Of a DNA stretch of 64,000 bases, positions 32,319-36,315 are shown one piece after another. A program made the translations under genes and the position numbers. The stretch's first letter is position 1, and every line of letters starts with the position of its first letter. Source of the stretch: Streptosporangium sp. NBC_01495 (GTDB taxonomy: Bacteria > Actinomycetota > Actinomycetes > Streptosporangiales > Streptosporangiaceae). The notes under the pieces were generated by a model. It was given only the letters and a program-made list of their open reading frames with translations, was not told where the DNA came from and did not search any database. The stretch is from positions 620,001 through 684,000 of the forward strand of contig NZ_CP109430.1 in NCBI RefSeq assembly GCF_036250735.1. The letters run 5' to 3'.

Positions 32319-33272
32319 ATGGAGTTCTCGCTGTTCGTCATCGCCTGTGTCGTCGCCCTGGTCATCCTCTCCACGGCCCTCGCGGTGCGCCGCGAGCACC
32401 GCCGGGTCCGCTCGGCCATGGTCGGCCACTACGGCGGGCCACCAAATCCGTACGAGCTCGCCTATCTCTCCGGAGGGCCGCGCCGCGTGATCAACACCGC
32501 GCTCGGCCTGCTGGCCAGGGCCGGGGCGATCCGGGTCTCGCGAGGCGGCCAGGCCAGCCTGGTCGCCGGGGCCAAGCCGTCTCCCGATCCGATCGAGTAC
32601 GCCGTCATGGAGGCGCTTCACCTGCGCGGAGGCTCGGCCCCCGTGGGCGAGGTCCGCCGCGCGGTGGCCGATGGGCAGAGCGTCGACGGTCTGCGCTACC
32701 GGCTGCTGGGGCTCGGTCTGCTCGTGCCCGAGGGCGCGCTCGACCACGCGCAGGCGCTGCTGAGCCGGCTCCAGATCGCCTCGATCGTCGAGGTGGTCGT
32801 CGTGGCGGGCATCCTGCTCGCCGGGGCGACCGGGGGATTGGGCACCTTCGCGCTGCTGGTGGGCATGTTCTCGGTGATCGGCGGTTTCTCCACCTACGCG
32901 CGGCAGAGGCGGGCCCTGCGCGACGTCCTGAGCAACGCCGGCCACCAGGTGCTCGCCTCCGCCCGCGGGACCTACGCTCGGGGCGCCCGGCCCCTCACAC
33001 CCGACCTGGCCTTCGCCGTCGGCATTCCCGTCGCCCTGTACGGCCTGAGCGAGCTCAACGAGCCCGGCCTGGAGGAGGAGCTCCAGCGCCAGACCGCGGG
33101 CGGTTCGAGCAGCTGCGCCACGGGCGCCTGCGGTGGCGGCTCGAGCTCGGGTGACGGCTCCTCCTTCGGTGGTGGCGGCGACTTCGGCGGATCGGGTGAC
33201 GGCGGTGGATCGAGTGACGGCGGTGGGTCCAGCTGCGGTGGCGGGTGCGGCGGTGGCGGTTGCGGTGGGTGA
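32319..33272 (+). CDS. TIGR04222-type membrane protein with Cys/Gly/Ser-rich tail (first)
   Basis: A 317-residue membrane protein. Helix 1 spans residues 4-22 and is followed by RREHRRVR. The soluble TIGR04222-like domain (GPPNPYELAYLSGG, residues 40-155) has two winged-helix-like repeats. Helices 2 and 3 lie near 165-198, followed by YARQRRALRD. By the positive-inside rule the tail is cytosolic. The tail (about 260-317) is almost only Gly, Ser, Cys and Asp, with five cysteines and the end CGGGCGGGGCGG. It is the kind of substrate that a DUF692 enzyme could modify, and that enzyme's gene lies 128 bp downstream. ATG 32319 has GAGGAGG 5 bases upstream. Confidence 0.88.
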   Translation: MEFSLFVIACVVALVILSTALAVRREHRRVRSAMVGHYGGPPNPYELAYLSGGPRRVINTALGLLARAGAIRVSRGGQASLVAGAKPSPDPIEYAVMEALHLRGGSAPVGEVRRAVADGQSVDGLRYRLLGLGLLVPEGALDHAQALLSRLQIASIVEVVVVAGILLAGATGGLGTFALLVGMFSVIGGFSTYARQRRALRDVLSNAGHQVLASARGTYARGARPLTPDLAFAVGIPVALYGLSELNEPGLEEELQRQTAGGSSSCATGACGGGSSSGDGSSFGGGGDFGGSGDGGGSSDGGGSSCGGGCGGGGCGG

Positions 33273-33340
33273 GCGGCACCCGGCCACGGCGGTGACGGTC
33301 GCCCCAACCGCCGCAGTCGCCTCAACCGCCCCAGCCACCG

Positions 33341-33368
33341 GAGACGCCGGAGACGCCGGAGACGCAGT
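33341..33368 (+). repeat. Nine-base triplicate GGAGACGCC
   Basis: Three near-perfect copies of GGAGACGCC lie in the 128-bp gap between the first TIGR04222-type gene and the DUF692 gene. It is a short tandem repeat with no visible role; it could also be slippage-prone DNA. Confidence 0.7.
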
Positions 33369-33400
33369 GGTGGCCGGGCTGCCTGCGGGCCGGAGCGGGG

Positions 33401-34225
33401 GTGTTTCCGATGGCGGCTGAGCCTCCGGCACTGGGCGTGGGCATCGGCTGGCGCCCTGAGATCGACCTGACCGTGGAACGGCTGCCCGGGGTCGACTTCG
33501 TCGAGGTCATCGCCGAGAACGTCAACCCCGCCCGGCTCCCCGAGTCGCTGCGGGTGCTCCGCGCCCGCGGGGTGCCGGTGATCCCGCACGGTGTCGGGCT
33601 GGGCATCGGCGGCGCCGAGTCTCCCGACCCGCGGCGGCTGGCGCACCTGGCGGCCTGCGCTCACGCCCTGGACGCGCCGCTGGTCAGCGAGCATCTCGCC
33701 TTCGTACGGGCGGGCGGGATGGAGGCCGGGCACCTGCTCCCCGTCCCGCGTACCCGGGCCGCGCTCTCCGTCGTCGCCGAGAACGTGCGGCGGGCACAGG
33801 AGGCGCTTCCCGTGCCGCTGGCCCTGGAGAACGTCGCGGCCCTGTTCGGCTGGCCTGAGGACGAGATGACCGAGGCCGCCTTCCTCGGCGAGTTGGTGGA
33901 GATGACCGGCGTCGGGCTCCTGATCGACGTGGCGAACCTCTATACGAACCAGGTCAACCTGGGCCTGTCGGCCACCGCCGCGCTGGACGGCCTCCCGCTG
34001 TCCGAGCTGGCCTACGTCCACGTCGCCGGGGGCCACTCCCACCAGGGGCTGTGGCACGACACCCACACCGCCCACGTCCCGCAGGACGTGCTGGACATCC
34101 TCTCCGAGCTGTGCGCCCGGGTCGACCCGCCCGGTGTGCTGCTCGAATGGGACGACGACTATCCCAGCGACGGCGCCCTGGAAGGGGAGCTCGACCGGAT
34201 CCGCGGCGCGATGGCCCGTGTCTGA
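33401..34225 (+). CDS. DUF692-family multinuclear iron oxygenase (MNIO)
   Basis: A 274-residue TIM-barrel protein. Metal-ligand blocks are visible in order: [63 protein letters not shown] and [10 protein letters not shown]. The family (MbnB, TglH, ChrH, BufB) oxidises cysteine or neighbouring residues in ribosomal peptides, using two or three irons. The neighbouring TIGR04222-type proteins with Cys-rich tails are plausible substrates. Start GTG 33401 has GGAG 6 bases upstream; ATG 33410 is the alternative. The stop overlaps the next gene by 8 bp. Confidence 0.9.
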
Positions 34226-34601
34226 CGACGCGGCGCGCGAGGCGCTGGCCAGGGCTCAGACGGCCCTGGTGGCGGCCCTGGTGGCCGGGGAGGAGGCGCC
34301 GCGGGGGTTCGACCGGGAGCGGCTGCGGATCCAGGAGGCCGGCCTGATCTCCAAGCGGCGCAGGACGGTGGCCAGGCTGCGGCCCGACCTGGCCGCGCTG
34401 CTCGGTGACGGCTTCGCCGGCGAGTTCGACGCGTACGCGCGAGGCCGCCCCAAGCCGCAGGGCGGCTCGCACGCCGACGCCCGTGACTTCGCCGAGCGCC
34501 TTCGCGCGGCGGGACGGCTGCCGGAGGAGCCCGGCCCCGCGCCCGCCTCCGAGCCCGGCCCCGCCCCCCGCCGATGGTCGCTCTTCGGCAGGCGCCGCTG
34601 A
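34218..34601 (+). CDS. Small coupled partner of the MNIO protein, possibly DUF2063-like
   Basis: A 127-residue soluble protein starting at GTG 34218, 8 bp inside the MNIO gene's end, so it is translationally coupled. It is helical, with [59 protein letters not shown] and [15 protein letters not shown]. This ordering (short helix, positively charged helix, LLG-F-FYARG-like helix, closing helix) resembles the N-terminal part of DUF2063 proteins that pair with MNIO enzymes (BufC, inference). The Pro/Arg-rich tail has no motif. Confidence 0.7.
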
Positions 34602-34760
34602 ATCGGCACGTCGAACCGGGCGCCGTCGAACCGGGCGCCGTCGAACTGGGCCCTGCCGAACCGGGCCCCGCCGAACCGGGCCCCGCCGAATCGGCACGCT
34701 GAACCAGGCGCCGCCAAATCGGACGCCGCCGAAGCGGCTGGCCGGACCGGGCGCCGCCGA
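34596..34760. repeat. 15-bp tandem repeat tract
   Basis: About ten copies of a unit related to CGCCGAACCGGGCCC (for example CGTCGAACCGGGCGC twice, CGCCGAACCGGGCCC twice) run head to tail with degeneration towards the end. On the minus strand the unit encodes a five-residue repeat ARFGG/ARFDG, the shape of pentapeptide-repeat proteins. The minus-strand frame overlaps the 34218 gene and has no clear start, so no gene is called. Confidence 0.75.
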
Positions 34761-34887
34761 ATCGAGCGTGCCGGACCGGGGGCGCTGAATCGAGCGTGCC
34801 GGATCGGGCGTTGCTGAAACTTCCGGTCCTCCCCGTTCGTCCACTGGGTAGTGAACCTCACGCAGGGACGTCATCCCGGAGGCCGTC

Positions 34888-35664
34888 ATGCAGACCGTAC
34901 AGATCGTCATCGTGGTGGGTTTCGCGCTTCTGGTGGTGGCGGTGCTGATCGCGCTGCGTCTGGCCGCGCACCACTCGCGTGTCTACGAGGGGCCCGAGCT
35001 GACGCCGTACGAGCTGGCGCTGCTCGCGGGTGGCCGGTTCCGGGTGGTCGACACCGCGCTGGCCTCGCTGACGGCGGGCGGGGCGGTCCGGGCACGGCGT
35101 GGCGGGCGGCTGACCCAGGTGTCCGGCCAGGTCGGGGTGCTCACCCAGCCGGTGCAGACCGAGATCCTCGACCGGCTCAGGGGGAAGGGAGGCGGCGTGC
35201 CGGTCTGGGAGATCAGGAACGTGGTGTCCCGGGGGCCCGCGGTGACCATGCTGATCGCGCGGCTGAGGGACCTGGCACTGATCGACGCGCCCGGTTCCGG
35301 CCGGGCCGACCCCACCCACCCCAACCGCGCCGGGAAGACCGCCCTGGCCCACTACCGCCTGCGCCACCGCGAGGACAGGGCCCTGCCACCCCGCGCCGGT
35401 GGCCGCGTCGACGGTGACGAGCTGAACATCCTGGGCGTTGCCCTGCACGGCCTGAAGCAGCTGGAGGACGGGCGGCTGGCGGCCACCCTGTCGATGAGCG
35501 GCCCGCCGCCGTCTCGCGCGCCACGCCGCCGCGTCTCCCGTTCCGGCGCCTCCGGTGCCTCGGCGGGCGGTTTCTACGGGGGCGGGGGCGGTTGCGGCTC
35601 CGGCTCCGACTCAGGCTCCGGTTCCAGCTGCGGGGGTGGGGGCGGCTGCGGCGGCAGTTCCTGA
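34888..35664 (+). CDS. TIGR04222-type membrane protein with Cys/Gly/Ser-rich tail (second)
   Basis: A 258-residue protein. The N-terminal helix spans about residues 4-25. It is followed by the domain shared with the first copy (GPELTPYELALLAGG, then a RGGRLTQVSG block), a soluble middle and a tail from about residue 215. The tail is Gly/Ser-rich with three cysteines (GGGGGCGSGS, SSCGGGGGCGGSS). It lacks helices 2 and 3 of the first copy. The topology by charge places the tail in the cytosol. ATG 34888 has CGGAGG 8 bases upstream. It is the second likely substrate of the MNIO enzyme. Confidence 0.85.
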   Translation: MQTVQIVIVVGFALLVVAVLIALRLAAHHSRVYEGPELTPYELALLAGGRFRVVDTALASLTAGGAVRARRGGRLTQVSGQVGVLTQPVQTEILDRLRGKGGGVPVWEIRNVVSRGPAVTMLIARLRDLALIDAPGSGRADPTHPNRAGKTALAHYRLRHREDRALPPRAGGRVDGDELNILGVALHGLKQLEDGRLAATLSMSGPPPSRAPRRRVSRSGASGASAGGFYGGGGGCGSGSDSGSGSSCGGGGGCGGSS

Positions 35665-35736: not shown

Positions 35737-36315
35737 ATGGATGGCGTTGATCATGTTTTGGCGGACTGGGGCGGGGATACCCTCTCTGAGGTGGGGGGAC
35801 TGCGTTGTCTTGATGGTTCTTATCTGACCGTTACGCCGGTGGCGTGCCGTGACAGTGTCGGCACGCCGTACGAGATCACCCTGCAGCTCCATCGCGACGG
35901 CGCGCTGTACGGCACGGTGGGCGAGCGGTGCGGCTGGTTCCTCACCCGGCTGGCACGGGGGGTCGCCGAGGCGCGTGCGGGCCACGAGGCCCGGTGGCCC
36001 GACCCCGACGACCGCTTTCCCGACGACGCGGAACTGTTCGCCTTTCGTTACCGAGCCAGGAACGGGATCGTCGGCGGGGGCGAACTCCGCTGCCAGCTGC
36101 GGACCATCCCGGTCTGGGTCCCCGGGCGGCGAGGGCCCGGCGGAGAGTGGCGGCTCACCAGAAGGGCGTTCCTGGAGGCCTGGGGTGGCGGCGGGGTGGG
36201 TATGCGCGCCGTTCTGACATCCTCTGAGCTGGGCGTTTTCGTGGAGGCACTCGTCACGGAGGCCGAGGACTGCCTGGGGTCCCACAAGCCGGGCAAGCCC
36301 GCCAGATCCCTGTAG
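35737..36315 (+). CDS. Hypothetical protein
   Basis: A 192-residue soluble protein starting at ATG 35737, after GGCGGGGAC. A WGGDTLSEVGGL N-terminus is followed by strands (ITLQLHRDGALYGTV) and a long mixed C-terminal half. The C-terminus has ELGVFVEALVTEAEDCLG. No motif I recognise is present. It lies 73 bp after the second TIGR04222 gene and 80 bp before the cis-prenyl transferase gene and may be co-transcribed with either. Confidence 0.65.
   Translation: MDGVDHVLADWGGDTLSEVGGLRCLDGSYLTVTPVACRDSVGTPYEITLQLHRDGALYGTVGERCGWFLTRLARGVAEARAGHEARWPDPDDRFPDDAELFAFRYRARNGIVGGGELRCQLRTIPVWVPGRRGPGGEWRLTRRAFLEAWGGGGVGMRAVLTSSELGVFVEALVTEAEDCLGSHKPGKPARSL

Follow-up and report, generated by a model that had tools for sequence, protein, structure and literature searches.

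Does an oxidative enzyme of the MNIO family (DUF692/PF05114) modify the cysteine-bearing tails of membrane proteins encoded beside it? The question is raised by a locus at positions 32,319-35,664 of a 64,000-nt window, i.e., the whole stretch of DNA analysed, from Streptosporangium sp. NBC_01495 (NZ_CP109430.1, 620,001-684,000). Here, a MNIO gene and a short partner gene lie between two genes for membrane proteins of the TIGR04222 family. We consider it probable that the locus encodes a three-part system, in which a cytosolic oxidase formed by the MNIO and its partner modifies the Cys tail of a membrane-tethered TIGR04222 protein. The gene set, its linkage, the coupling or fusion of enzyme and partner, the iron ligands and a charge-based topology are read from the sequence, whereas what we propose in addition concerns the tail as substrate, the way it docks, the reaction, the metal bound and the biological role. 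An earlier note on this DNA had proposed the tails as substrates and had called the use of full-length membrane proteins unusual. The idea is already in print, since Antoine et al. suggested in 2025 that MNIOs act on TIGR04222 proteins and reported short partners of 'PME-type 2' (PMC12452194), and the locus is a real member of this proposed kind. All four open reading frames (ORFs) of the note were recovered at the same coordinates and on the same, forward strand.

The enzyme gene (33401-34225, +) encodes a protein that matched PF05114 with 268.6 bits (cut-off 25) and passed the curated threshold. Upon alignment to TglH (8hci_D), with residues paired by eye, all nine TglH iron ligands (His71, His107, Glu151, Asp184, Asn187, His216, Asp229, His231 and Glu258; PMC10880893) were matched by H59, H94, E139, D172, N175, H203, D216, H218 and E245 (numbered from 33413). 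These nine positions were invariant in 12 of 12 aligned MNIO sequences, and none of the metal ligands that had been ascribed to the gene was missing. In place of the GTG start at 33401, ATG 33410 is more likely, because homologues begin near that point. The closest NCBIfam model was the BufB equivalog NF050167. Since the score of 193.9 bits lies below the 310-bit cut-off of this model, the enzyme was not called a bufferin maturase, and as judged by sequence it is a relative of that enzyme and not one itself. Its nearest named relatives belong to Streptosporangium species (family Streptosporangiaceae). The second MNIO gene of the genome (L327:5822-6691, corresponding to G000:C1 about 2980821-2981690; L003) lies more than 6 kb from any TIGR04222 match over the cut-off and more than 1.5 kb from any partner match. 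A Lgt-like (prolipoprotein diacylglyceryl transferase) gene is located directly upstream of it in L003.

The likely substrate, protein 1 (317 aa, 32319-33272, +), scored 130 bits against TIGR04222 (cut-off 43 bits). A hydropathy scan placed transmembrane (TM) helices at residues 5-23, 153-171 and 174-192, and the predicted layout consists of an N-out TM1, a cytosolic domain, a TM2-TM3 hairpin and a cytosolic tail of Cys, Gly and Ser. The AlphaFold2 model had a mean confidence (pLDDT) of 83.5 and fell below 50 for residues 263-317, the tail (33105-33269), which is probably disordered. Five cysteines lie in this tail (residues 266, 271, 306, 310 and 315) and a further one, residue 10, in TM1. 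Protein 2 (258 aa, 34888-35664, +) scored 72 bits, likewise above the cut-off, with its best TIGR04222 stretch covering only profile positions 4-133 of 229. A single N-out TM helix (4-22) is predicted, compared to three in protein 1, followed by a short domain and a low-complexity tail (35518-35661) with Cys 236, 248 and 254. The residue positions agree with the five and three tail cysteines counted in the earlier note.

Throughout the genome (11.1 Mb) we found only two TIGR04222 matches, and because they sit on either side of one of the two MNIO genes present, the pairing at the locus goes beyond chance. TIGR04222 matches below the curated cut-off were left out of every count; the matches listed reached down into such weak ones. 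Among 150 genomes of the family, 57 carried both MNIO and TIGR04222, 7 MNIO only, 28 TIGR04222 only and 58 neither (Fisher p = 1.6e-12), and among 246 genomes of the class 45 carried both, out of 51 with a MNIO and 64 with TIGR04222 (p = 1.9e-27), where both p values ignore relatedness. The co-occurrence of TIGR04222 and DUF692, which had been named as a check, was thus borne out at both levels. In the family, 55 of the 73 MNIO rows, two of which are fragments of one gene in genome G120, have a TIGR04222 gene no more than 6 kb away.

The composition of the tails was assessed for the 126 family TIGR04222 matches over the cut-off, 125 of which were in fetched DNA; the linked gene of genome G009 lies outside the fetched stretch. 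Three counting rules were used, which differ slightly in the stretch counted. At least three tail cysteines were present in 69 of 69 complete MNIO-linked proteins (the locus included) compared to 20 of 52 unlinked ones. By a stricter rule, which asked for at least three Cys near the end plus a Gly/Ser-rich end and included proteins cut by contig ends, such tails were seen in 64/70 linked proteins, in 4/22 unlinked proteins of MNIO genomes and in 0/33 proteins of MNIO-free genomes. Counted by genus, Cys tails occurred in 22 of 22 genera having linked copies and in 3 of 21 having unlinked copies, and every unlinked Cys-tailed copy (G003, G100, G141, G050 and G021) resides in a MNIO-bearing genome. 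Twelve genomes possess linked as well as unlinked copies: in seven of them every unlinked copy has zero tail Cys, and the other five have at least one unlinked copy with three or more tail Cys. In the linked proteins, the 345 tail cysteines are followed by Gly in 289 cases and preceded by Gly or Ser in 301. For HvfA, conversion of six Cys to 5-thiooxazoles has been described within AEGKCGEGKCG motifs (PMC13419390).

The partner gene (34218-34601, +) overlaps the end of the MNIO gene by 8 bp (34218-34225) and encodes a 127-residue protein without a Pfam match and without a NCBIfam match above the cut-off. As in PME-type 2 partners, the gene stands directly after the MNIO and its product has no DUF2063 Pfam match; neither did any of 20 aligned partners. 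A partner hidden Markov model detected the protein in 54 of 54 MNIO-linked family loci and in 0 of 53 unlinked TIGR04222 loci; 32 of the linked loci had served for training and match by construction, the other 22 being independent. In a set of 80 named loci, many of which come from species already in the family set and are not counted as independent, the partner was present in 78, and the contigs of the remaining two stop roughly 100 and 170 bases downstream of the MNIO. In L218, a further locus of this set, the partner frame starts inside an unusually long MNIO frame. The partner accompanied the MNIO in 35/35 class loci fetched. A search of the class placed 49 of 52 partner matches within 1.5 kb of a MNIO, with the other three being weak. 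No partner was nearby for 9 of 58 class MNIO rows (the rows exclude two weak fragments of G332), in one of which, G316, the family-trained profile does find a partner, and all 39 TIGR04222-linked rows were accompanied by one.

The two genes are moreover coupled. In 36 of 54 family loci the partner gene begins before the MNIO gene ends, with an overlap of 4 or 8 bp, and MNIO and partner form one open frame in 25 of 35 class loci. A single frame was also seen in Bailinhaonella thermotolerans (L112/L243, 586 aa) and in an uncultured member of the Corynebacteriales (L245). Neither the available part of PMC12452194 nor the related literature listings, as far as we could see, mention a MNIO that is naturally fused to such a partner. 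The model of the locus partner comprises four helices and zero strands (pLDDT 87.2), with nothing comparable to the C-terminal RRE domain of TglI. An hhalign comparison with six DUF2063 proteins suggests, at the sequence level, a possible relationship to DUF2063; over 89 columns it gave E 0.0055 with a probability of only 6.6%, compared to E 0.39 and 0.31 for the controls. Foldseek returned no significant match for the partner, the top of eight non-significant hits being MbnC (7dz9_C, E 6.4), and a sequence search of the PDB gave nothing at E 5 with the partner and nothing at E 0.1 with the six DUF2063 proteins. The NCBIfam model for actinodefensin-associated protein B was dismissed at 12.5 bits versus a cut-off of 45.

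On which side of the membrane do the tails reside? Topology was derived from a simple hydropathy scan for TM helices and from Lys/Arg counts in their flanks, with protein starts taken nearest to the profile match. Of 136 distinct linked proteins scanned, 120 have TM1 near the N-terminus, and the C-terminal flank is the one richer in Lys/Arg in 119 of these. The N-terminal flank contains no Lys/Arg, compared to a mean of 3.7 in the 15 residues that follow TM1. Similarly, the TM2-TM3 loop averages 0.37 Lys/Arg versus 3.7 after TM3, the TM3 side being larger in 89/92 proteins. With the farthest plausible start chosen instead, the TM1 bias was found in 61/67 proteins and reversed in 3. For 57 class proteins, linked and unlinked, it held in 39/41 for TM1 and in 39/45 for the hairpin. 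From these charges both the TIGR04222 domain and the tail are predicted to be cytosolic, and the claim of the earlier note that the tails face the cytosol is supported by the statistics over 120 proteins. Weak domain matches among 56 TIGR04222 proteins scanned (DUF2207_C in 15, HTH_Crp_2 in 12 and HTH_20 in 5) fit a winged-helix-like domain inside the cell; protein 1 itself gave none of the matches of its relatives. The likeness to proteins with a DUF2207 C-terminal domain (PF20990) consists of the weak match in 15 of 56 relatives, at best with E 1.8e-4, and membership is not claimed.

Several observations weigh against tail modification by the MNIO. Outside the family genomes already seen, all 33 linked loci of the class and 20 of 25 unlinked ones were fetched. 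Among their 37 linked TIGR04222 proteins, 23 have at least three tail Cys and 14 have none. Among nine proteins from MNIO-free genomes, four have at least three tail Cys by plain count, and a Cys/Gly/Ser-tailed protein was found in L310 (G224:C226), in a genome of 270 contigs without a detected MNIO. Of eleven unlinked proteins in MNIO genomes, four have at least three tail Cys and three a Cys plus Gly/Ser tail. In 11 of the 33 TIGR04222-linked class loci, MNIO and partner are present, yet no Cys-tailed TIGR04222 protein was found. By a scripted rule, Cys-tailed proteins occurred in 21 of 35 fetched class MNIO loci, where the 35 include L299 and L300, two loci picked for having no TIGR04222; L298, with five tail Cys, is also Cys-tailed and was missed since the profile ran into the tail. 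A clear orthologue of protein 2 follows the MNIO in only 2/80 named loci (L171 complete, L170 ended by the contig), and in L171, from Streptosporangium subroseum, its final 80 residues are free of Cys. Because of this rarity and of the complete orthologue without a Cys tail, protein 2 is, in sequence terms, a weaker substrate candidate than protein 1; it looks like a lineage-specific addition. Further points of this kind are the simplicity of the topology method, the disagreement of our cytosolic placement with the periplasmic prediction published in PMC12452194, the lack of a significant structural match in a Foldseek search with the TIGR04222 protein, and the lack of a recognisable metal-homeostasis gene in a scan of window ORFs near the locus. 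The proposal that the tails are MNIO substrates is supported in part: tail Cys track the MNIO in the family, but the rule is not universal.

In a first alternative account, TIGR04222 would serve as a scaffold in the membrane or would present the substrate, the MNIO-partner pair would act on another peptide that has escaped recognition, and the Cys tail would simply bind metal or take part in redox reactions. Ten of the 11 tail-less loci belong to one genus (g85) and keep MNIO, partner and TIGR04222; in L280 of this genus a DUF4142 protein follows the enzyme, and eleven MNIO-partner pairs have no TIGR04222 over the cut-off within 6 kb. Six other linked loci of g85 do have a Cys tail. The close tracking of family tail cysteines with the MNIO (69/69 linked, and none of the 33 proteins from MNIO-free genomes by the stricter rule) argues against a mere scaffold, and it extends into single genomes, in 7 of 12 of which unlinked copies are all free of tail Cys. 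A search of 13 class loci without a Cys tail (MNIO strand, 4.5 kb, ORFs with a Cys/Gly/Ser C-terminus) revealed no alternative substrate, and no other small Cys-rich gene was noticed in the cluster of the window, where a systematic search was not made. On balance we regard the scaffold account as doubtful. Lineages without tail Cys are nonetheless the place where a second substrate might be found.

Some features of these lineages are recorded here in their own right. In L280, one stop-to-stop frame fitted the Cys/Gly/Ser search; it overlaps the DUF4142 gene in another frame and was judged spurious. The DUF4142 protein (L280:6433-7272) is encoded after a one-frame MNIO-partner gene and before a TIGR04222 protein without tail Cys (L280:7375-8172). 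This protein and its counterparts in L270, L282 and L284 retain two cysteines, in the motif CTRLC, close to where TM1 ends, a possible alternative modification site.

A second account would place the tails outside the cytoplasmic membrane, where they would be bufferin-like and modified before or during export. This is the published view, as PMC12452194 assigns the low-complexity regions to the periplasm from predicted TM topology. The charge bias of both TM1 (119/120) and TM3 (89/92) points to the cytosol instead, and the weak HTH-type domain matches fit the same side, rendering an exported tail improbable. A chance neighbourhood, with genes of unrelated roles held together by synteny, is disfavoured and appears very improbable: a phosphoenolpyruvate carboxykinase (PEPCK) gene upstream in 38/54 and an undecaprenyl diphosphate synthase gene downstream in 35/54 linked loci indicate that some of the conservation seen within the family can be put down to synteny alone, but the association holds across the class, MNIO and partner share one frame in most class loci fetched, and family tail composition follows the MNIO.

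For the three-part system that we favour, the following course of events may be envisaged. The MNIO and its small helical partner would constitute one cytosolic oxidase, whose targets are the Cys-Gly sites of a disordered C-terminal tail. This tail belongs to a TIGR04222 protein that would be membrane-anchored, with folded domain and tail both on the cytosolic side. The partner may be a four-helix docking domain. Since it lacks a recognisable RRE, docking probably relies on a surface of the substrate itself, and the winged-helix-like TIGR04222 domain could provide this surface where other systems use a leader peptide. The reaction would leave several Cys-derived heterocycles (5-thiooxazole or oxazolone/thioamide) on a protein anchored in the membrane, which might bind copper or another soft metal at the inner membrane face; both product chemistry and copper role are inferred from known MNIOs. 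A bolder version regards TIGR04222 proteins as self-presenting MNIO substrates, whose winged-helix domain replaces leader and RRE and whose rows of heterocycles at the cytosolic face serve as a membrane-bound metal buffer or sensor. We offer this only tentatively, as possible rather than likely. If true, it would define a protein class with a permanent, multi-copy modification, bound to the membrane instead of being a secreted peptide.

How does the locus compare to known systems? With the TIGR04222-MNIO clusters, as far as they are covered in the available part of PMC12452194, it shares the gene families, the proposal of a C-terminal Cys/Gly/Ser substrate and the short PME-type 2 partners, modelled there with 115 and 158 residues. 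It differs in topology, with tails assigned to the cytosol rather than to the periplasm, and in the partner, which is reported there for at least 10% of clusters, many being without. In our analysis every linked locus examined has the partner, provided that the contig continues far enough past the MNIO, and enzyme and partner often share a frame. These two differences, the natural one-chain forms and the tracking of tail Cys with the MNIO in the family are what our analysis adds to that work. Bufferin and oxazolin systems (BufB/BufC, HvfB/HvfC) likewise combine a MNIO with a downstream partner, HvfA has Cys-Gly sites, and the BufB model is the best NCBIfam match of the locus MNIO. However, their precursors carry Sec signals and their partners DUF2063 plus RRE domains, whereas here a membrane protein is the candidate substrate, so that we read the product as a modified protein of the membrane and not as a peptide, and the partner is short and helical. 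An engineered HvfB-HvfC fusion was highly active (PMC13419390). TglHI and MbnBC share the MNIO family, the TglH ligands and, in TglI, a partner with a helical N-terminal domain; TglI differs by its C-terminal, substrate-binding RRE domain, which has no equivalent in the 127-residue partner model. If the three-part system is real, MNIO enzymes would modify full-length integral membrane proteins besides short secreted peptides, and would do so in many actinobacteria. The tails would then have to be sought on the cytosolic side, and the partner, or a natural single-chain form, would be needed alongside the MNIO.

Among the surrounding genes, the one at 35737-36315 encodes a 192-aa protein without a Pfam match and without a NCBIfam match above the cut-off, and lies beside the cluster in 26/54 linked loci. 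Twenty of the 60 genomes having it lack a MNIO, and 24 of 64 MNIO genomes lack it. It was therefore rejected as a member and treated as a syntenic neighbour, and the PEPCK and undecaprenyl diphosphate synthase genes were treated likewise. Between the partner gene and the gene for protein 2, a tandem repeat array extends over 34591-34811, in which a 15-bp unit, CGAACCGGGCGCCGC, occurs in about 11.6 copies at 34612-34780 and longer periods overlap.

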